DNA of 10,348 bases, taken from positions 2,535 through 12,882 of the forward strand of contig VXXH01000463.1 in the NCBI GenBank assembly GCA_009835515.1, given 5' to 3'. The notes under the pieces are model-generated. The model was not told the origin of the DNA. It did no database searches and saw only the letters and a list, made by a program, of their open reading frames with translations. Made by a program: the position numbers and the translations under genes. Origin of the DNA: Candidatus Poribacteria bacterium (GTDB taxonomy: Bacteria > Poribacteria > WGA-4E > WGA-3G). This document shows, piece by piece, positions 2,728 to 9,849 of the stretch; position 1 is the stretch's first letter; each line of letters begins with the position of its first letter.

Positions 2728-2916
2728 ATGGTATTGATCTTCTCTGTATGGAAACGACTAAAACGTTGGTTGCCGGTTGTGCTGGTGATAGGTGTCGGTG
2801 TAATCGTGTGTTTGTTTACACGCACCCAAGAATGCCCCGAGGCACCCCGCGATCAAGTCTGTCCATATCCGGCTCCTACTTGTCCATACAGAGCAGATAA
2901 CACACCAAAGCCTTAA
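2728..2916 (+). CDS. Small single-pass membrane protein with a Cys/Pro-rich tail (62 aa)
   Basis: The protein has a basic N-terminus (KRLKRW, residues 9-14), one hydrophobic segment (about 15-30, LPVVLVIGVGVIVCLF), and a polar tail with three cysteines, two in CPYPAPTCPY. By the positive-inside rule the tail would face outward. The family is not recognised. The ribosome binding site is weak, and the ORF is short enough that chance cannot be excluded. The membrane-protein pattern and its position 46 nt before another anchored protein favour a real gene. Its short cytoplasmic part is too small for a conventional anti-sigma domain. Confidence 0.5.
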   Translation: MVLIFSVWKRLKRWLPVVLVIGVGVIVCLFTRTQECPEAPRDQVCPYPAPTCPYRADNTPKP

Positions 2917-2962: not shown

Positions 2963-3802
2963 ATGTTGAAAAACCTGTTATCCAACCGCATTTTTATAGG
3001 TATTTTGGTTCTTATCATCTGTGGTGTCGTGAGCGTTTACTTCCTACGCACAGACCTCCCCGAAGAACCGATCAAGATTTATACGCCTGTCGAACCCATG
3101 CCGAAACCGAAAGCAGAAGCTCCTATTGGGGAGACAGAACAAGATGGACATGTTCATGAGGATGGCACCTGGCACGAGGGGACTCACGAGGCACACGCGC
3201 CGCCCGCTGTGCCAAACACGTCCCCCCCTGGTGTGGCGACAACCCCTGATTTCCCGTCCGTCGATCCCAACGAGGATCCCGTAGAAGCGGCATATAAGCG
3301 GCTGGAATACATTAAAAACAACCCGTATGCGTGGGGGGGAGTTCATTCCGAGCGTGCAACGGAACTGATCGCGCAGTTGATGCCAGCATCACTTCCGATC
3401 GATCACAATGACTCTGATGAACGCGAGTTGCTGATTGAAGAACTCTGTCAACAAAACGATCCGCGCGCTGCGGGGGCTTTAATCGCGCTCATGTGTGACG
3501 GCGGCACGAAGGGACGGGTGATGTTTGATACGTTGGAAGCGATCGGCCCCCCTGCCGTGCCATACATCCTGCCCTATTTGGAAAGGGTAAATACGATGGG
3601 GACAGACTGGATTCAAGTTAGTTTTGCAGTCTTTGACCCTTTAAGTCGTATTGGCGTGCGGTATCGTGAAGACTTAGGCGGTATTTTGGATCACATCATT
3701 ATCGCGAAGTTTCAAGAGATCGCTGCCGATGAAAATAATGAACGTTATGGCCCTACTACTGTCAGGCGTGCCCGCGAGGCCCTTTCTGTGCTGGGTCGAT
3801 AG
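2963..3802 (+). CDS. Membrane-anchored protein with His-rich linker and HEAT-like domain
   Basis: A 279-aa protein. Residues 10-28 form a single hydrophobic anchor, preceded by a short basic start. A Pro-rich stretch follows (about 33-100) with a cluster of histidines at 63, 65, 71, 75 and 78 (GHVHEDGTWHEGTHEAH). From about residue 105 on, the chain looks helical, with a HEAT-like segment in the middle (DPRAAGALIALM and AIGPPAVPYILPYL). HEAT repeats usually bind proteins. The His cluster could bind metal, but this is inference. The start is ATG at 2963, with GGAG and an 8-nt spacer. Only 12 nt separate it from the M15 peptidase gene, whose ribosome binding site overlaps this gene's stop codon, so the two are surely cotranscribed. 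Function unknown; likely outside the cytoplasmic membrane. Confidence 0.8.
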   Translation: MLKNLLSNRIFIGILVLIICGVVSVYFLRTDLPEEPIKIYTPVEPMPKPKAEAPIGETEQDGHVHEDGTWHEGTHEAHAPPAVPNTSPPGVATTPDFPSVDPNEDPVEAAYKRLEYIKNNPYAWGGVHSERATELIAQLMPASLPIDHNDSDERELLIEELCQQNDPRAAGALIALMCDGGTKGRVMFDTLEAIGPPAVPYILPYLERVNTMGTDWIQVSFAVFDPLSRIGVRYREDLGGILDHIIIAKFQEIAADENNERYGPTTVRRAREALSVLGR

Positions 3803-3814
3803 GAGATTTTTCAG

Positions 3815-5566
3815 ATGCGTGTTAGATTTTTTGTGTTTTTCTGTTTGATTCTATTTGTGTGTTCGTCATTATATTCAGCGACGACAAATCAACAGGGCTC
3901 TGGTTCTGGTAAATTAGGTAAGCCGTCGGTGAAGTTCGAGGCGTGGCAGATTGGTCGGAGCCCTAAAAACACGGACACCAATTCTGCGAACCATAACCCG
4001 ACCTCTTTTATCACAAGTACCGAGGAGGAATGCCATTTTACCGCGTCGGTTGTCTACGATGGCAATCAGGGGGATAGTGTTTCCCCGATTGATGTGTCTA
4101 CAATAAAATGGACCCTCACGGGTCAGGCCCCGTCGAGTCTGGCAATTAAGACCTCGGAGAAGAACTGGTCGGGTAAACATCCGTCGAGGTTGGCGGGCAC
4201 GTCCTTTAATGTTGTCGGGACGATCAGCGTTCCGAAGTTTAATAGGAACACTTCCTGTAGCCACCCAAATGACGATGATCGCTTACTACGTCAGCCTCGG
4301 CATCGGGGCGGCACGTATTTAGGGTTCACGTTGGTGTTTTCGGCGAAGACCGAGGATGATCAAGATATAAAACCTGCGAGGTTAGTCTTGAAAGCAGACC
4401 AAATAGACCGGGTGCGTCAGGAGTATGTCGATTACAACAAACCGATTCCAGAGCGTGGGGATTCTCGGTTGCAGAACCAAGACACCTACGACTTCGGTCA
4501 CTATCAGATAATGCTCAACTATCTGCTTCAAAACAAGCATCAGGACTGGGTTGATGAGATCAATAAATTGAGAGGTACAGACAGGGAGACCGGTGAAAAA
4601 ATCCCCGCATTTTCGGTGAGTGATTTTGTCTTGACGAGTGGGTATCGGCATCCGCACCACAACTACGAGCATACGCCGTCAACGGCAAAGTTGAGTCCGC
4701 ACATGTATGGGTATGCGATGGATGTCAGAGGTAGAGCACTTGCTGAAGATAAACTCCTTGATATAAACGGTGATAAAAAGAACACCGACTTGGACCGAGA
4801 TGTAATGGAGGAGGCAGCGAAGCCGAATGCTGAAGCGCGTTATACGTATATTTATCCGTCGAAGCATGTGCATGCCGACTGGGCCCCGCCGAATTGGGCA
4901 TATCGTACGAAAACATCTGCTGCTGCGCGGACGTTTTCGTTGCCTGCGCAAGGCACTGATCAGCCTGTCACGGCGGCACCCGCGCCATCCGCATCCATAA
5001 CGGGTGACTGTGGTACGCATACGATTTCGACGAGTCAAGCCGCAAATCATGCCGCTGTCAATTTTGCGTGTGGGAGTCATACGTATTATGCCTGTCAAAC
5101 GCCAGCGACATCAGAAACGAATCGTCATAGTCATCAGACATTGCCGTGTGGTTCGCATTCGGGGTATCGCTGCACCGCGACATCCAGCCACACGCAAACC
5201 ACAACATGTCCATCAGATACTAACGGTCAGTCGTGTTCTTATGGCTCGTATTATGCGTGTTCGCCGCATACCCACGCCTATCCAGAGCCTCCAGCGAATC
5301 CACCACCACCACCCTCGCCGCCACCCTCAACAACGGTTTCGTGTGGTCGCTCGGCTTGCACTGCGAGCGTGAGTTCAAGAAGCGAGCACTGGACACCGTG
5401 CGATGCGGGGCATTCGTATTGGTCGTGTTCTGATAGTCAGACGAATCGTCACCGGACGCGCACCTGCCGTCGGAGTGGCTGCGGTCAGTCGTGGCAAGCG
5501 TGTGTTGATGGATGGAACGCCCCGGCGTGTCCTTCGCCGTACGGAGATTCCTGTTGGGCACAGTAG
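3815..5566 (+). CDS. Secreted M15-type zinc peptidase (D-Ala-D-Ala carboxypeptidase-like) with Cys/His-repeat tail
   Basis: A 583-aa protein. Residues 1-22 are a signal peptide ending LYSA. About 30-190 look like a beta-rich domain of unknown family. About 220-360 match the M15 peptidase fold: SGYR (275-278) supplies the conserved Arg, SPHMYGYAMD (294-303) the zinc ligands His296 and Asp303, and KHVHADW (350-356) the HxH pair His351/His353. This arrangement is that of the Streptomyces albus G DD-peptidase type, which cleaves D-Ala-D-Ala in peptidoglycan; cell-wall peptide cleavage is the likely role. The tail (399-583) is rich in Cys (17) and His, with recurring C-x2/3-H-x4-C motifs at 419-427, 445-453 and 529-538. 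A Pro-rich linker at 490-504 splits it. The tail might bind metal, form disulfides or attach to the wall. AGGAG with a 9-nt spacer supports ATG 3815. The next gene starts 5 nt after the stop. Confidence 0.8.
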   Translation: MRVRFFVFFCLILFVCSSLYSATTNQQGSGSGKLGKPSVKFEAWQIGRSPKNTDTNSANHNPTSFITSTEEECHFTASVVYDGNQGDSVSPIDVSTIKWTLTGQAPSSLAIKTSEKNWSGKHPSRLAGTSFNVVGTISVPKFNRNTSCSHPNDDDRLLRQPRHRGGTYLGFTLVFSAKTEDDQDIKPARLVLKADQIDRVRQEYVDYNKPIPERGDSRLQNQDTYDFGHYQIMLNYLLQNKHQDWVDEINKLRGTDRETGEKIPAFSVSDFVLTSGYRHPHHNYEHTPSTAKLSPHMYGYAMDVRGRALAEDKLLDINGDKKNTDLDRDVMEEAAKPNAEARYTYIYPSKHVHADWAPPNWAYRTKTSAAARTFSLPAQGTDQPVTAAPAPSASITGDCGTHTISTSQAANHAAVNFACGSHTYYACQTPATSETNRHSHQTLPCGSHSGYRCTATSSHTQTTTCPSDTNGQSCSYGSYYACSPHTHAYPEPPANPPPPPSPPPSTTVSCGRSACTASVSSRSEHWTPCDAGHSYWSCSDSQTNRHRTRTCRRSGCGQSWQACVDGWNAPACPSPYGDSCWAQ

Positions 5567-5571
5567 CCACA

Positions 5572-6129
5572 ATGAGCCAAACACAACGTAACCTTATCAA
5601 CAAGCGCGTCGGTAATCTTTGGATTGCTGGCGCGTTGGTTTTACTGGGGATTGTCTTTGTGGTAAGTTTTCCGTCGCCCTCGCCACCGATCCCTGAACCC
5701 TCACCCGTCAAGGGAAACCCGAATGCACCCCCTCGCCTCGGCGAGCAGCCCCGCACCCCGTCGCGCACCCGCTTCCAATCTTCCGCTCTTCCTTCTGCCT
5801 CGCAATCGGATTTCTACCGCACCATCATAGACAACAATCTGTTCCGTCCCTTGGGATGGACACCGCCGCGTCCGATAGAACCCTATCGTCTCCTTGGCAC
5901 CATCCTCCCGACAGACGAAAAAACGCCCCGGCAAGCGATCATCCTCGCAACCGCCGCTAATAAAACGCATATCGTCGGCATCAGTGAACGACTTAGCGCG
6001 GAGACAAAAGTTGTTGACATCCAATCGAAGCAGGTCACCCTTGACAGCGCAGGGCAGCGACGAGTGCTCAGATTAGACACCTCCGCGTGGATCAGCACTT
6101 CCACAGGTAGACTCTCACGCCGAAGATAA
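5572..6129 (+). CDS. Membrane-anchored protein with GspC/PilP-like periplasmic domain
   Basis: A 185-aa protein from ATG 5572. It has a short cytoplasmic start, one membrane segment (about 16-33), a Pro-rich linker (34-63) and a compact domain (about 81-171). That domain opens FYRTIIDNNLFRPLGW and continues with YRLLGTI, QAIIL and a closing VTLDSAGQRRVLRLD. The order resembles the homology-region domain of type II secretion GspC and of pilus protein PilP, which link inner-membrane machinery to the outer-membrane secretin. No other secretion gene is visible. An upstream in-frame ATG (5512) lies inside the peptidase gene and would add 20 residues before the anchor, so it is unlikely. There is no clear ribosome binding site. 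The start lies 5 nt after the peptidase stop, which suggests translational coupling. Confidence 0.7.
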   Translation: MSQTQRNLINKRVGNLWIAGALVLLGIVFVVSFPSPSPPIPEPSPVKGNPNAPPRLGEQPRTPSRTRFQSSALPSASQSDFYRTIIDNNLFRPLGWTPPRPIEPYRLLGTILPTDEKTPRQAIILATAANKTHIVGISERLSAETKVVDIQSKQVTLDSAGQRRVLRLDTSAWISTSTGRLSRRR

Positions 6130-6216: not shown

Positions 6217-7416
6217 TCACGGACAAACGAACTTACCCAGAACTTTCCGAACGGATGCCCCCGTCGCTGAAGGCAGATTCCCAGCGTTTCCGTGGAGTGT
6301 CTCATTCGCCAGAATCGCGAACGCAATCGCCTCCTTCGCATCCGCTGAGATACCAGAGTTGTCTACCGGTTCAACCGATGTATCTGATAGCAGTTCACCA
6401 AACCGTCGCACGATCGTCTGATTGTGGACACCACCCCCGCTCACATAAAGCGTGTCTATCAGGCTCTGTCCTGTTATGAATCGCTCGATATAGCCGACAA
6501 TCGTCTGGACCGTCAGTTCGGTCAGTGTCGCGATGCAGTCGTTGTCTGAAAGTGCGTGTTCACGGCAGTCCGCCAGGCATTCCATTGCATAAGTGTGTCC
6601 AAACATCTCGCGTCCGGTGGTTTTCGGGGGTGGCAGATGGAAAAATGGGTGTTTCGACCATTCGTCAATGAGCGGTTGGTATGGCGTGCCCTGTGCGGCA
6701 CGTTTGCCCGCATCGTCATAATGCTCTGTCCCGTGTGTTATTTCCGTTACGACTGCATCGATGCACATATTGCCGGGACCCGTATCCGCAGCGCAGACAG
6801 AATCAACCGTTCCGTTTGCAGGCAGCACCGTGAGATTCGCGATCCCGCCGATGTTCAACAATCCAACTGTTTTAACGCTGTTATGGAACAGTAGATAGTC
6901 GATGTATGATACCAACGGCGCGCCTTGCCCGCCCGCTGCCATATCAGCGACCCGAAAATCCGCTATCGTTGGAATTCCAGTTTCGTGCGCGATGACCGCA
7001 GGTTCGCCGATCTGTAGCGTTGAGGGATAACGAGAATCGTTGCAATCCGCGCTTGTGTCTTTTGGCAGATGATGAATTGTTTGTCCGTGTGAGCCGATGA
7101 GGGCGATGTCGTTGGCGCGCATTCCACTTTTTTGCAGGATGTGTTTCACTGCTTCTGCGAAGAGGTGTCCGATATAAAAATTCATCTCGCAGATGTCATC
7201 AACGCGACCGGTATTGGGTTGGCAGAGCGCAAGGATCCGTTGTGGCACGCCGGATGGAAACGGAAAGGTCTCAAAAGCGATGAGGTCTACTTCAGTTTCC
7301 AAGCCGTGTCCGGTAATTTCAACGATAGCAGCATCGATGCCATCAACAGAGGTACCGGACATTAAACCGATAACATATTTTTTTTCTCTCTTGAGAAGTC
7401 GAAAAAAATCTTTCAT
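6217..7416 (-). CDS. anmK: Anhydro-N-acetylmuramic acid kinase
   Basis: A 399-aa protein, slightly longer than typical AnmK because of about 13 extra N-terminal residues. The enzyme opens the 1,6-anhydro ring of anhydro-MurNAc and phosphorylates it with ATP, giving MurNAc-6-phosphate for cell-wall recycling in the cytoplasm. Family motifs are all present: GLMSGTSVDGID (17-28, nucleotide binding), SHGQTIHH (109-116), ADFRVADMAAGGQGAPLV (152-169, with probable catalytic Asp158), NIGGIANLT (188-196), DTGPGNMCID (211-220), VSGGGVHN and the late ISADAKEAIAFAILA segment. The start ATG lies 9 nt after the namZ stop with only a weak ribosome binding site, indicating coupling to namZ. MurQ, the etherase that would use the product, is not in this window. 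Confidence 0.96.
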   Translation of the reverse strand: MKDFFRLLKREKKYVIGLMSGTSVDGIDAAIVEITGHGLETEVDLIAFETFPFPSGVPQRILALCQPNTGRVDDICEMNFYIGHLFAEAVKHILQKSGMRANDIALIGSHGQTIHHLPKDTSADCNDSRYPSTLQIGEPAVIAHETGIPTIADFRVADMAAGGQGAPLVSYIDYLLFHNSVKTVGLLNIGGIANLTVLPANGTVDSVCAADTGPGNMCIDAVVTEITHGTEHYDDAGKRAAQGTPYQPLIDEWSKHPFFHLPPPKTTGREMFGHTYAMECLADCREHALSDNDCIATLTELTVQTIVGYIERFITGQSLIDTLYVSGGGVHNQTIVRRFGELLSDTSVEPVDNSGISADAKEAIAFAILANETLHGNAGNLPSATGASVRKVLGKFVCP

Positions 7417-7425
7417 CTATGTTCT

Positions 7426-8610
7426 CTAAGCGTAGGCGTGATGTTGTTTTGCTTTGTCGCGCCACGTCTGAAGTTCTTGTACCCAGCGCGCCCGAATCGT
7501 ATCCACTGATTCTCCATTTGACAGAGCATCTCGGAGCCAAGTGTTTCCTACTAACCTATCAAAATGGGCGGGTAAAAATCCAAAATGGTCTCTATACTCG
7601 GTGGTTAAAACGGATAACATCTGGAGAGCGGTCTCTATTGGACGGAAACGTTCTCTGTCGGTAATGTGGATTGCAACGCCTCCGCAGGTCTGTTTTGCGT
7701 GTTTTGTGGTCTCAACGACCGGCGCGGGTGTGAAAACAACAGGACGGAACCGAACCCCCGGTAGTTGGCAGTCATTCAGCAGTTCTGCCCATCTTTCGCC
7801 ATTGCACCAAGGCGCACCTATGTATTCAAACGGATTTGTCGTGCCTCTGCCCTCGCTCATATTTGTGCCTTCAAAGAGACATAACCCCGGGTAAAGCACT
7901 GCGGTTGTAAGCGTCGGCATATTCGGCGATGGCGGCACCCATTGCAAACCGGTGTTATCGTGCCACATGCCTCGTCTGTATCCATACATCCATGCCACTT
8001 TTAGTTGACATGACGGTACGCGCTCCGCTTTCAATAACATCGCCAATTCACCGACCGTCAACCCATAACGAACTGGAATCCTATGTATACCTACGAACGA
8101 TTCAGAGCCGCTCGCCAATACCGGTCCCTCCACAGCAGTGCAGGTAATTGGATTCGGTCGGTCAGCAACGATAAGCTCAAGTCCATAGTCACTGGCTGCC
8201 TCCATCGCATGTAGTAAGGTCGAAATGTAGGTATAATAACGCGCGCCGACATCCTGCATATCATAGACAAGCAGATCTATGCCTTCAAGTTGATTTGCTG
8301 TTGGGCGCATCGACTGTCCATACAGACTGAAAATCGGCACGCTTAATGGATTTTCATCAGACGTGTCAACACTATTGATAGCGATACCGTCTTGGACGGA
8401 TCCCCAGAGTCCATGCTCTGGCGAAAAAATCGCGGAGAGTTGACACTCAGGTGCTTCAGCAAAAAGCCGATAGTTACTTCGCAGAGCAGCATCAACCCCA
8501 GTATGATTTGTAATCAGCCCGATTGATTTTCCTCGAATCCAATCACTTTTCTCGCTGAGTAAGATGCTCAACCCTAATTCTGTTTGTTGTGATCTTGCCG
8601 GAACATTCAT
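7426..8610 (-). CDS. namZ: Exo-beta-N-acetylmuramidase NamZ (DUF1343, GH171)
   Basis: A 394-aa protein with the diagnostic motifs of the former DUF1343 family: GLITNHTG (31-38), FSPEHGLWG (62-70, with Glu65 the likely catalytic acid), LVYDMQDVGARYYTY (114-128), ADRPNP (149-154), RYGLTVGELA (181-190), PPSPNMPTL (226-234) and EGTNMSEGRGTTNPF (247-261). NamZ removes MurNAc from the non-reducing end of peptide-free glycan chains. The Bacillus enzyme is secreted, but here the N-terminus (MNVPARSQQTELGLS...) has no signal peptide. An in-frame stop lies a few codons upstream of ATG 8610, so no longer form exists. The ribosome binding site is weak. It sits between a serine hydrolase and anmK in the same direction, as part of a MurNAc-recycling module. 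Confidence 0.95.
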   Translation of the reverse strand: MNVPARSQQTELGLSILLSEKSDWIRGKSIGLITNHTGVDAALRSNYRLFAEAPECQLSAIFSPEHGLWGSVQDGIAINSVDTSDENPLSVPIFSLYGQSMRPTANQLEGIDLLVYDMQDVGARYYTYISTLLHAMEAASDYGLELIVADRPNPITCTAVEGPVLASGSESFVGIHRIPVRYGLTVGELAMLLKAERVPSCQLKVAWMYGYRRGMWHDNTGLQWVPPSPNMPTLTTAVLYPGLCLFEGTNMSEGRGTTNPFEYIGAPWCNGERWAELLNDCQLPGVRFRPVVFTPAPVVETTKHAKQTCGGVAIHITDRERFRPIETALQMLSVLTTEYRDHFGFLPAHFDRLVGNTWLRDALSNGESVDTIRARWVQELQTWRDKAKQHHAYA

Positions 8611-8650
8611 CTTCTCGTTTTTTTATAGTTATCGGAGGGAATAGTTACCA

Positions 8651-8727
8651 GTTATCAGTTGTCAGTTATCGGCTATCAGTTACAAGAGGTTTCTGATTAA
8701 ACAATACCCCTCCTTAACTGACAACTG
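8651..8727. repeat. cagttatc-type repeat and 13-bp inverted repeat between the hydrolase and namZ
   Basis: 8651-8679 consists of degenerate cagttat-like units and matches 6181-6209 in the other orientation. In addition, cagttgtcagtta (8656-8668) and taactgacaactg (8715-8727) form a perfect 13-bp inverted repeat. The hairpin would form in the transcript just after the hydrolase stop codon and before namZ. It may terminate transcription in part, or stabilise the ends of processed mRNA. Confidence 0.65.
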
Positions 8728-8730
8728 TTC

Positions 8731-9777
8731 TCACTGCGAAGCATAACAACTGAAAACTATTTCATGGAACATCCTCCGAAATTCAATAATACCGCGTCGG
8801 TCAGCATCAGGGTGTACCCGATTTGTCAACAGAATAGCAGCGAGTTTCCTCTTCAAACATATCCGTATTGAAGTACCAGTGAATCCTGTATGATAAAGAC
8901 ATTCATCATCCGTCACTGCCCAACCGATGCAGCGGCGTTCTCCTTCTGCTGAGACGACTTTACGCATCACGTCGAGGCTCTCCAAACGTAATAGGACACC
9001 ACCGTTATCCATTAACGCGCTGCAAAATTTTCCGAGGTCTGTTGACGTAGCGAAGAGTCCCGCATTGCCTGAAACACCGCCGAGAAAATGCGCGTTTTCA
9101 TCGTGGACCTGTCCGATAATCACACCTTCTCGCCAGTCGTAGCGTTCATAGTTTACCATCCGACGTTCAAAACTGTTGGAATCCTCAGTGGCAGCACAGT
9201 TTCCATGCCACGCTTGGGGCGGATTGAACCACGTCTGCTCCATACCGAGTGGTGCGAATATCCGCTCTCGCGCCAATTGATCAAGCGGCTGTTTCGTTAC
9301 CTTTTCAAGCAGCGCACCGAGCACAATATACCCTAAGCAACTGTATACCGCCTTCTCTCCAGGTTGAGATTCCAATGCCACCTCACCGAGATAAGAAATA
9401 ACATGCTCGCGGGATCCTGCCCGTAGGTAGAGCGGTATCCATGCCGGAAGACCTGAAGTATGTGTCAACAGATGGGTAAGCGTTACGCCTTTCTGTCCGA
9501 AGGCTGGCAAGTATTTCTCAGCAGGTGTACTCAGGGAGAGCCTGCCTTTCTCAACAAGCTGCATGCAGAGCGTCCCGATGACAATCGGCTTTGTCAGCGA
9601 TGCCAAGTCGAACAGGGTCGTGCGAAGCATCGGCAGTCGTTTCGGCTTTATAGATCGGCACCCAAAAGCTTCGTGGTAAAGCACCTCTTTATCGGTAAGG
9701 ATACAAGCAACTGCCCCAGGAAATACCTTTTCCGTAATGCTATTCTCAATGAGTGTTGAAATCGAATCTTTAAACAT
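8731..9777 (-). CDS. Serine hydrolase of the beta-lactamase fold, AmiE/YbbE-like
   Basis: A 348-aa protein of the class C beta-lactamase/penicillin-binding family. The active site shows SLTK (60-63, nucleophile Ser60 and Lys63), YSC (145-147, where the family has YSN or YSD) and HTG (296-298, the KTG equivalent). HDENAHFLGGVSGNAGLF (225-242) is typical of the subfamily next to namZ. B. subtilis AmiE, encoded in the murQRP-amiE-nagZ-namZ cluster, is a muropeptide amidase of this fold. Removing stem peptides so NamZ can act is therefore the likely role; an esterase is possible. No signal peptide is present. The start is taken as ATG 9777 because it gives 18 residues before the family's FPGA motif. 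The upstream GTG (9789) has GGAG only 1 nt away and lies inside a repeat. GGAG is 13 nt from the ATG, in the loop of a repeat hairpin. Confidence 0.9.
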   Translation of the reverse strand: MFKDSISTLIENSITEKVFPGAVACILTDKEVLYHEAFGCRSIKPKRLPMLRTTLFDLASLTKPIVIGTLCMQLVEKGRLSLSTPAEKYLPAFGQKGVTLTHLLTHTSGLPAWIPLYLRAGSREHVISYLGEVALESQPGEKAVYSCLGYIVLGALLEKVTKQPLDQLARERIFAPLGMEQTWFNPPQAWHGNCAATEDSNSFERRMVNYERYDWREGVIIGQVHDENAHFLGGVSGNAGLFATSTDLGKFCSALMDNGGVLLRLESLDVMRKVVSAEGERRCIGWAVTDDECLYHTGFTGTSIRICLKRKLAAILLTNRVHPDADRRGIIEFRRMFHEIVFSCYASQ

Positions 9778-9778
9778 G

Positions 9779-9849
9779 GTAGTAGGCACGCTCCGTGTGC
9801 CGTAACGTTGAAGTCATAGTAGTAGGCACACTCCGTGTGCCGTAACGTT
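9779..9849. repeat. Tandem hairpin repeat, two 31-bp copies 40 bp apart
   Basis: The copies at 9779-9809 and 9819-9849 differ at one base (g9790 versus a9830). Each holds a palindrome, ggcacac-tcc-gtgtgcc in the second copy (9825-9841), with one G-U pair in the first (9785-9801). They lie directly upstream of the hydrolase start codon. Confidence 0.85.

Follow-up and report, generated by a model that had tools for sequence, protein, structure and literature searches.

The window, i.e. the whole stretch of 10,348 nucleotides analysed here (Candidatus Poribacteria, contig VXXH01000463.1), carries on its forward strand a gene (3815-5566) for an apparently exported, M15-like protein of 583 aa that ends in a Cys/His-rich tail and that, judged from sequence and profile matches, is a putative peptidase. 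The protein begins with a signal-peptide-like stretch (residues 1-21; 3815-3877), helical at residues 2-16 in the AlphaFold model, and continues with a beta-sandwich, Ig-like domain at approximately residues 38-200 (3926-4414), which is indicated by strands in the model (block pLDDT 59-97) and by the aligned span of Ig-like and other beta-sandwich PDB chains. An M15/Hedgehog-type domain follows (residues 227-364; 4493-4906). A preliminary description had proposed a complete M15 zinc site, and R278, H296, D303, H351 and H353 are indeed all present: the SxHxxGxAxD and HxH metal-site patterns read S294-P-H296-M-Y-G-Y-A-M-D303 and H351-V-H353, and H296, G299, A301, D303, H351 and H353, though not the Ser, are invariant across 14 aligned sequences. 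The nearest known family is Peptidase M15 (PF08291/MepK-DUF882, LAS fold; Hedgehog N-domain), from which the window protein differs by its added N-terminal Ig-like domain and Cys/His tail and by a score of 17 bits against PF08291, under the gathering cut-off of 23.2 bits; one relative (P0036) bears a precomputed PF08291 label.

The earlier reading of the tail had left out the two neighbouring genes on the same strand. Upstream (2963-3802), separated from the peptidase gene by 12 bases, lies the gene for a partner protein of 279 aa comprising an N-terminal transmembrane (TM) helix, a His-rich motif (residues 63-78, HVHEDGTWHEGTHEAH; 3149-3196) and a variable C-terminal domain of the class that accompanies M15 heads. 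It matches partner profile A6 (E=1.3e-23), which was built with this protein included, and no Pfam family. Downstream (5572-6129), starting 5 bases after the peptidase stop, a short GspC-like protein of 185 aa is encoded (E=3.9e-78 to profile A7, of which it forms the first row). Two genes upstream of the partner, also on the forward strand, is a gene for an ECF-type sigma factor of 195 aa (1969-2556; Pfam Sigma70_r4_2, E=1.9e-11, and Sigma70_r2, E=1.5e-9), and at 2728-2916 (forward) a small, single-TM-like protein of 62 aa with a Cys-rich C-terminus and no Pfam match is encoded. The reverse strand carries adjacent genes for AnmK, NamZ and a beta-lactamase-fold hydrolase (6217-9789), a peptidoglycan-recycling set close to the putative cell-wall peptidase gene; the set is not among the recurrent neighbour clusters listed. 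A WD40 protein (144-1214, reverse) looks split, with a 76-aa frame running from 1214 to 984 and the WD40 frame resuming at 938, as if frame-broken.

Module families of the Cys/His tail

Within the tail (residues 399-583, 185 aa) we confirmed the 17 Cys counted previously, together with 12 His, as well as the C-x2/3-H-x4-C motifs CGSHTYYAC (419-427), CGSHSGYRC (445-453) and CDAGHSYWSC (529-538) and the degenerate, His-less form CSYGSYYAC (474-482). At least three such motifs occurred in 30 of 20,000 shuffles of the tail. The three repeats noticed earlier are pieces of a larger pattern of two kinds of unit, here called beta and gamma, for which profiles of 45 and 70 positions, respectively, were built from database relatives (82 found with the whole protein, 6 with the tail alone and 54 with the tail region, the lists of 82 and 54 overlapping and including the window's protein). 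All six relatives with an organism name are Candidatus Poribacteria, as are both named loci. In the window, the tail opens with an incomplete beta unit and the Cys/His stretch behind it (residues 399-444; 5009-5146; beta HMM 16.2 bits at 399-429), after which come a beta module (445-490; 5147-5284; 57.3 bits), a Pro-rich linker (491-509; 5285-5341; pLDDT below 50 at 498-509) and a gamma module (510-583; 5342-5563; 73.4 bits). In the AlphaFold model gamma reaches a block pLDDT of 61-89, whereas beta is modelled poorly (block pLDDT 43-77).

The beta pattern, C-G-x-H, H, C, C, C-x2-H-x-H-x-Y-P, contains four Cys and four His, which in 129 distinct copies (gaps excluded) are conserved at 100% (C1), 90% (H4), 96% (H14), 90% (C20), 100% (C29), 100% (C37), 87% (H40) and 96% (H42); the gamma profile has its own further set of Cys and His. 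Across 14 aligned sequences including the window's, C399, H402, H412, C419, C427, C474, C482, H485, C529, C551, C556 and C563 are invariant, while C445, H448, C453 and H533 are not, because another unit sits there in some relatives. The conservation of Cys and His positions on which the proposal of a new module depended thus extends across the module family. The suspicion that the tail is no known domain also stood, since no Pfam or NCBIfam profile was matched above its cut-off, and among PDB sequences the tail's best match had E=0.29. What the window encodes is a conserved, unnamed set of modules on an apparently exported protein.

Both families are nearly confined to one family of this uncultured phylum and constitute, from our survey, an undescribed Cys/His module family. 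Among 84 Poribacteria genomes, beta is present in 33 and gamma in 36; every beta genome and 35 of the gamma genomes belong to the window's family, which counts 58 genomes, and one gamma genome lies outside it. A second module protein is encoded at C536 in the genome from which the window comes, which is 78.6% complete. Titles and opening lines of abstracts among the Poribacteria papers listed contain no description of this family, in a coverage that leaves out most subscription papers and preprints, and no relative turned up in two scans of viral contigs.

In total, 180 module proteins (171 nonredundant) were recovered; beta matched 275 times and gamma 227 times, with overlap between some matches. 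Of the 123 proteins with an intact C-terminus, 108 have no more than 30 aa after their last module. After trimming, 125 usable heads fell into 30 BLAST families that are mostly unrelated; by eye they comprise M15 peptidases (44), a hydrophobic stretch flanked by two helices (41), beta-rich heads (30), family 2 (9) and one other. The repeats occur on many other, unrelated and apparently exported proteins of the lineage. The suggestion that the tail targets or regulates the peptidase is not supported as put: the same modules on 30 BLAST-distinct head families imply that the tail serves something common to these payloads. One frame of 731 aa running off its contig end (L056:4619-6814, reverse strand) consists almost wholly of beta modules (13 by profile; 14 matches).

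Heads and tails also have partly separate histories. Identity over residues 399-490 is 88-97% for eight of 13 aligned M15 relatives and 31-60% for the other five, and the histories of head, module 399-490 and gamma often differ (identities of 31, 96 and 49% in P0032, and of 69, 97 and 37% in P0003), although some relatives lack such mosaicism (52, 31 and 46% in P0017; 59, 54 and 44% in P0016). M15-head genes are present in 14 of 84 phylum genomes. Within the family there are 20, of which, by coordinates, 12 are joined to a beta or gamma match within one open frame, one (G031:C426) has a module match just behind the head in another frame, three (G056) run off contig ends, and four (two each in G050 and G034) have no module match. 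At G050:C181 a CxxC-type, Cys-rich tail lies behind the head in a different frame and at G034:C4 the head frame is lost inside the first metal motif, so part of the tail-less set reflects decay. Other C-termini are found on some M15 heads, and the M15 homologues P0027 and P0031 carry FN3-type modules instead of the Cys/His tail. Payload genes behind partners at three loci (L127, L144, L167) look frame-broken or truncated, that at L127 with a CxxC-type Cys-rich tail in another frame. The database protein P0072 (368 aa) starts like an M15 payload and then, by eye, shows a partner variable domain of another class, being either a gene fusion or an assembly chimera. At L140 (G018:C24), in a different family, an Ig-like stretch follows by eye the gamma-like module of a tailed protein.

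Metal binding or disulfides in the tail

Of the two chemistries proposed for the tail, metal binding is the better supported; we consider it likely for gamma and, with somewhat less assurance, probable for beta. A rough regular-expression parse of 200 distinct gamma copies found His in the knuckle of 89, Cys in 45, both in 4 and neither in 27 (35 unparsed), and the last His of beta is replaced by Cys in 12 of 224 parsed copies (35 unparsed). Of 107 tails, 43 have an even and 64 an odd number of Cys; for 122 whole mature proteins the figures are 64 and 58, which shows no bias to either parity. A search of the 38 genomes of the window's genus (g1) that detected its control families found neither DsbB nor VKOR in any of them. 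The His/Cys swaps, the lack of preference for even Cys counts and the failure to find DsbB or VKOR lean towards metal rather than disulfides.

Motif statistics were obtained by comparison with shuffled sequences. In favour of metal, CG-x-H occurred 186 times against 13.3 after shuffling and C-x2-G-H 63 times against 14.1; against it, C-x2-C-G knuckles were not clearly enriched (29 against 18.6, maximum 34). A C2HC-finger-like pattern (C-x2/3-C-x3-aromatic-x6/9-H-x2/5-C), which also counts for metal, was found in 50 of 171 proteins, compared with a mean of 1.1 in shuffled sequences, and in 23 of 41 members of the coiled-coil class; it lies partly within gamma knuckles and is absent from the window protein. 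Some coiled-coil heads (e.g. L058, L084, L104, L105) are followed, ahead of beta, by an extra C2HC-finger-like C-x-G-x-C-x3-aromatic-x9-H-x3-C. Five delta pieces compared with zinc-finger families gave nothing above cut-off, the weak match of one to Phage_zn_bind_3 having E=0.019.

No similarity of the tail to a known fold or family is statistically firm. The best PDB sequence match of the gamma profile is CHORD2 of RAR1, a zinc-binding domain (2xcm; E=0.015); behind it come the disulfide protein COA6 (0.058) and zinc fingers of KLF4 (at least 0.22). Among 15 Foldseek hits of the tail model, nine were Parkin, TRIM21 RING, TRAF6, PHD or CHORD, each of the 15 having an E of at least 0.97 (2xcm_E, 6.7), and weak Pfam matches of beta were mixed, including the disulfide families resistin, PAN and colipase. 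CHORD domains are eukaryotic and intracellular, and Pfam CHORD (PF04968) matched one of 13 gamma sequences, under cut-off (E=2.1). Gamma and RAR1 share the start C-x4-C-x13-C (residues 510, 515 and 529 in the window; 159, 164 and 178 in RAR1; PMC2935968), with the next His at +4 in the window and at +3 in RAR1. Later ligand spacing differs, the window gamma departing after the first three Cys from the CHORD arrangement C-x4-C-x13-C-x2-H-x14-C-C-x15-C-x4-H.

Partner and GspC-like genes around the modules

The partner gene is a recurrent neighbour. In 78 fetched loci around most beta places, the same family lies directly upstream on the same strand in 64 of 86 module genes, with 6 of the 86 at contig ends and one more partner recognised by its motif; the two genes overlap by 1 or 4 bases in 16 of 65 pairs. 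By profile scan with the window added, a partner occurs within 1.5 kb upstream of 69 of 87 module genes, and 8 of the 18 without such a match are at contig edges while 10 are not. The architecture is constant in outline, with one N-terminal TM helix, a His motif in most cases and then the variable domain. The motif is HxHxDGxWH in g1, including the window, and often HGDHxH in genus g3, and neither form is present in a few partners; both His of HxH are invariant in 12 aligned partners.

Partner variable domains track the heads. Among 1711 pairs of loci (59 loci), 88 were similar in both head and partner domain, compared with a mean of 15.4 and a maximum of 36 in 2000 permutations, although this covariation may reflect only joint inheritance. 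Partner domains were similar and heads dissimilar in 140 locus pairs, while the reverse was true of 28.

Partners are more widespread than tails, with a match at E<=0.01 in 51 of 58 family genomes, of which some weak ones, e.g. in G034, are probably other TM proteins. Seven g1 genomes have one to five partner matches and neither beta nor gamma, and detectable modules are missing in some partner neighbours; a different set of seven g1 genomes, which have no partner, has neither module either. Outside the window's family, G018 is the sole genome of family f3 with a partner match (E=1.4e-13) and also the sole one with a gamma match (E=1.7e-5, the only gamma match outside the family), and its two genes are adjacent and on the same strand. 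Partner-profile matches in G005 (in a 68-aa frame) and G009 (E of 0.0025 or weaker) were not counted.

Genes farther upstream recur less often. An ECF family was seen at 10 of the 78 loci fetched. A stricter clustering placed 8 of 11 members on the same strand, two or three genes upstream, and by eye an ECF gene also precedes the partners at L122 and L123. In g3, small single-TM proteins with a Cys-rich C-terminus are often found ahead of the partner (L079, L081, L090, L094, L100, L102, L104, L106-L108; also L156 and L157) and are possibly a further cassette component. They form a family in 10 g3 loci, to which the window protein at 2728-2916 is similar in kind only.

The GspC-like proteins have an N-terminal TM segment and an HR-like domain, as GspC of type II secretion does, but the payload-linked copies are short (approximately 157-185 aa in 7 of 8 A7 rows), numerous per genome and placed behind payload genes. 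Seven of eight A7 members match Pfam T2SSC (PF11356) weakly (best E=3.5e-5; one bit score 23.7 against a cut-off of 27); the window's own protein has no Pfam match and reaches only E=0.0061, under cut-off, against NCBIfam GspC_delta. A GspC-like gene lies downstream of 27 of 48 g1 module genes, three of the remainder being at contig edges, and of 0 of 39 module genes in g3. In the examined loci, 41 of 134 partner matches have a GspC-like match within 5 kb downstream and 50 of 65 GspC-like matches are preceded by a partner, so the gene is not essential everywhere.

GspC-like matches were found in 83 of 84 genomes, with 1-18 per g1 genome when split genes are counted more than once. Copy numbers in g1 (38 genomes) rise together, the Spearman coefficient of partner copies being 0.88 with GspC-like, 0.78 with gamma and 0.61 with beta (beta with GspC-like, 0.49); in g3 (18 genomes) partner copies correlate at 0.54 with GspC-like and 0.64 with gamma. 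The secretin, on the other hand, is represented by one match in 37 of 38 g1 genomes, and by two, one of them partial, in G050. The N0 domain of the secretin is bound by the HR domain of GspC, and this HR domain is also similar to PilP (PMC3169554); because of that resemblance the secretin could instead belong to a pilus.

A proposed payload cassette and its alternatives

The explanation that we prefer, at a probability of roughly one half for the whole, is that small modules, specific to the lineage and probably zinc-binding, are arrayed in the tail, which forms the constant C-terminal part of exported payload proteins encoded in a two- or three-gene cassette. The data establish the module family, its presence on many heads, the partner operon, the covariation of heads and partners, and the parallel rise of GspC-like and partner copies in g1, whereas zinc as the ligand, its transfer from the partner and a secretin route are inferred. 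The pairing of constant with constant and variable with variable parts suggests that the tail meets the anchor and His motif of the partner while the head meets its variable domain. In the periplasm, the constant part of the partner (membrane anchor and His motif) would supply metal to the tail, or hold it, and the variable domain would recognise the head class, which in the window is a putative M15-type cell-wall peptidase. The presence of a GspC-like gene in genomes with a single secretin suggests export, and in the window's genus the short GspC-like protein may link the payload/partner pair to that secretin. A transfer of metal from partner to tail would have a precedent, by analogy, in PhtD, an extracytoplasmic protein that binds zinc through HxxHxH-type motifs and hands it to its operon partner AdcAII (PMC3842936). 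Many g3 partners carry HGDHxH; the partners described here, however, have one motif after their TM helix, and what is encoded next to them is a Cys/His protein instead of a subunit of a transporter. Seven partner proteins gave no match to the Pfam histidine triad at E<=10.

The main rival to this payload cassette is a polymorphic toxin with its immunity protein, in which the heads would be effectors against other cells, cutting peptidoglycan or damaging membranes, the tail the delivery or receptor-binding part, and the partner, with its variable periplasmic domain, a membrane-held immunity protein. Heads that include an M15 peptidase and the helix-hydrophobic-helix class, which seems to us reminiscent of pore formers, would suit such a role, as would the covariation of heads and partners, the patchy occurrence (M15-head genes and beta alike), the truncated or frame-broken state of several payloads, and the mosaic heads and tails. 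Polymorphic toxins usually have a constant N-terminal delivery part and a variable C-terminal toxin, however, whereas here the order is reversed, modules ending most intact proteins; moreover, partner domains are more conserved than heads, five proteins gave no PADLOC match, and none of 10 payloads had a Pfam match above cut-off or a recognised toxic domain. We regard this rival as possible but rather unlikely. One constant part with many payload heads is also seen in T9SS exoproteins, whose substrates share the C-terminal position of the constant domain. Por CTD-like domains occur in Poribacteria without Por structural genes, according to PMC3909097, but none is listed for the proteins that were run through NCBIfam.

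Less probable again is that the tail serves in adhesion outside the cell, as a disulfide-rich module that would attach payloads to the cell surface, the wall or a host matrix, with the partner as a dedicated chaperone. This reading would fit Cys-rich tails on apparently exported proteins, the weak beta matches to resistin, PAN and colipase and the one weak gamma match to COA6, the FN3-type modules in place of the tail on P0027 and P0031, and a phylum known from marine sponges (PMC3909097). It fits poorly with odd Cys counts as common as even ones, with the His/Cys swaps, with the lack of DsbB and VKOR in the 38 genomes searched and with the nearly invariant beta His, which is unexpected in disulfide domains. 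An ordinary M15 endopeptidase or endolysin whose known wall-binding domain has diverged past recognition would account for the M15-like head, but the tail occurs on many non-M15 heads, no relative appears in the scanned viral contigs and no wall-binding family is among the weak matches listed; we hold this reading to be very improbable.

Within the payload-cassette explanation, a more specific proposal, which we advance tentatively, is a modular export route in which an interchangeable C-terminal zinc-finger tag would be loaded with metal by a His-motif partner and a private GspC-like adaptor from the same operon would connect it to a shared secretin, making secretion metal-gated and cassette-based. 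Starting from one odd tail, the analysis has arrived at an undescribed Cys/His module family and at a gene cassette present in multiple copies in genomes of an uncultured phylum, and it offers defined pairs of parts: head with partner domain, tail with His motif, and GspC-like domain with secretin. Should the cassette explanation hold, metal-finger repeats would be at work outside the cytoplasm and many GspC-like adaptors would share one secretin, both of which are rare to our knowledge, and this would bear directly on how secretion systems choose their substrates.
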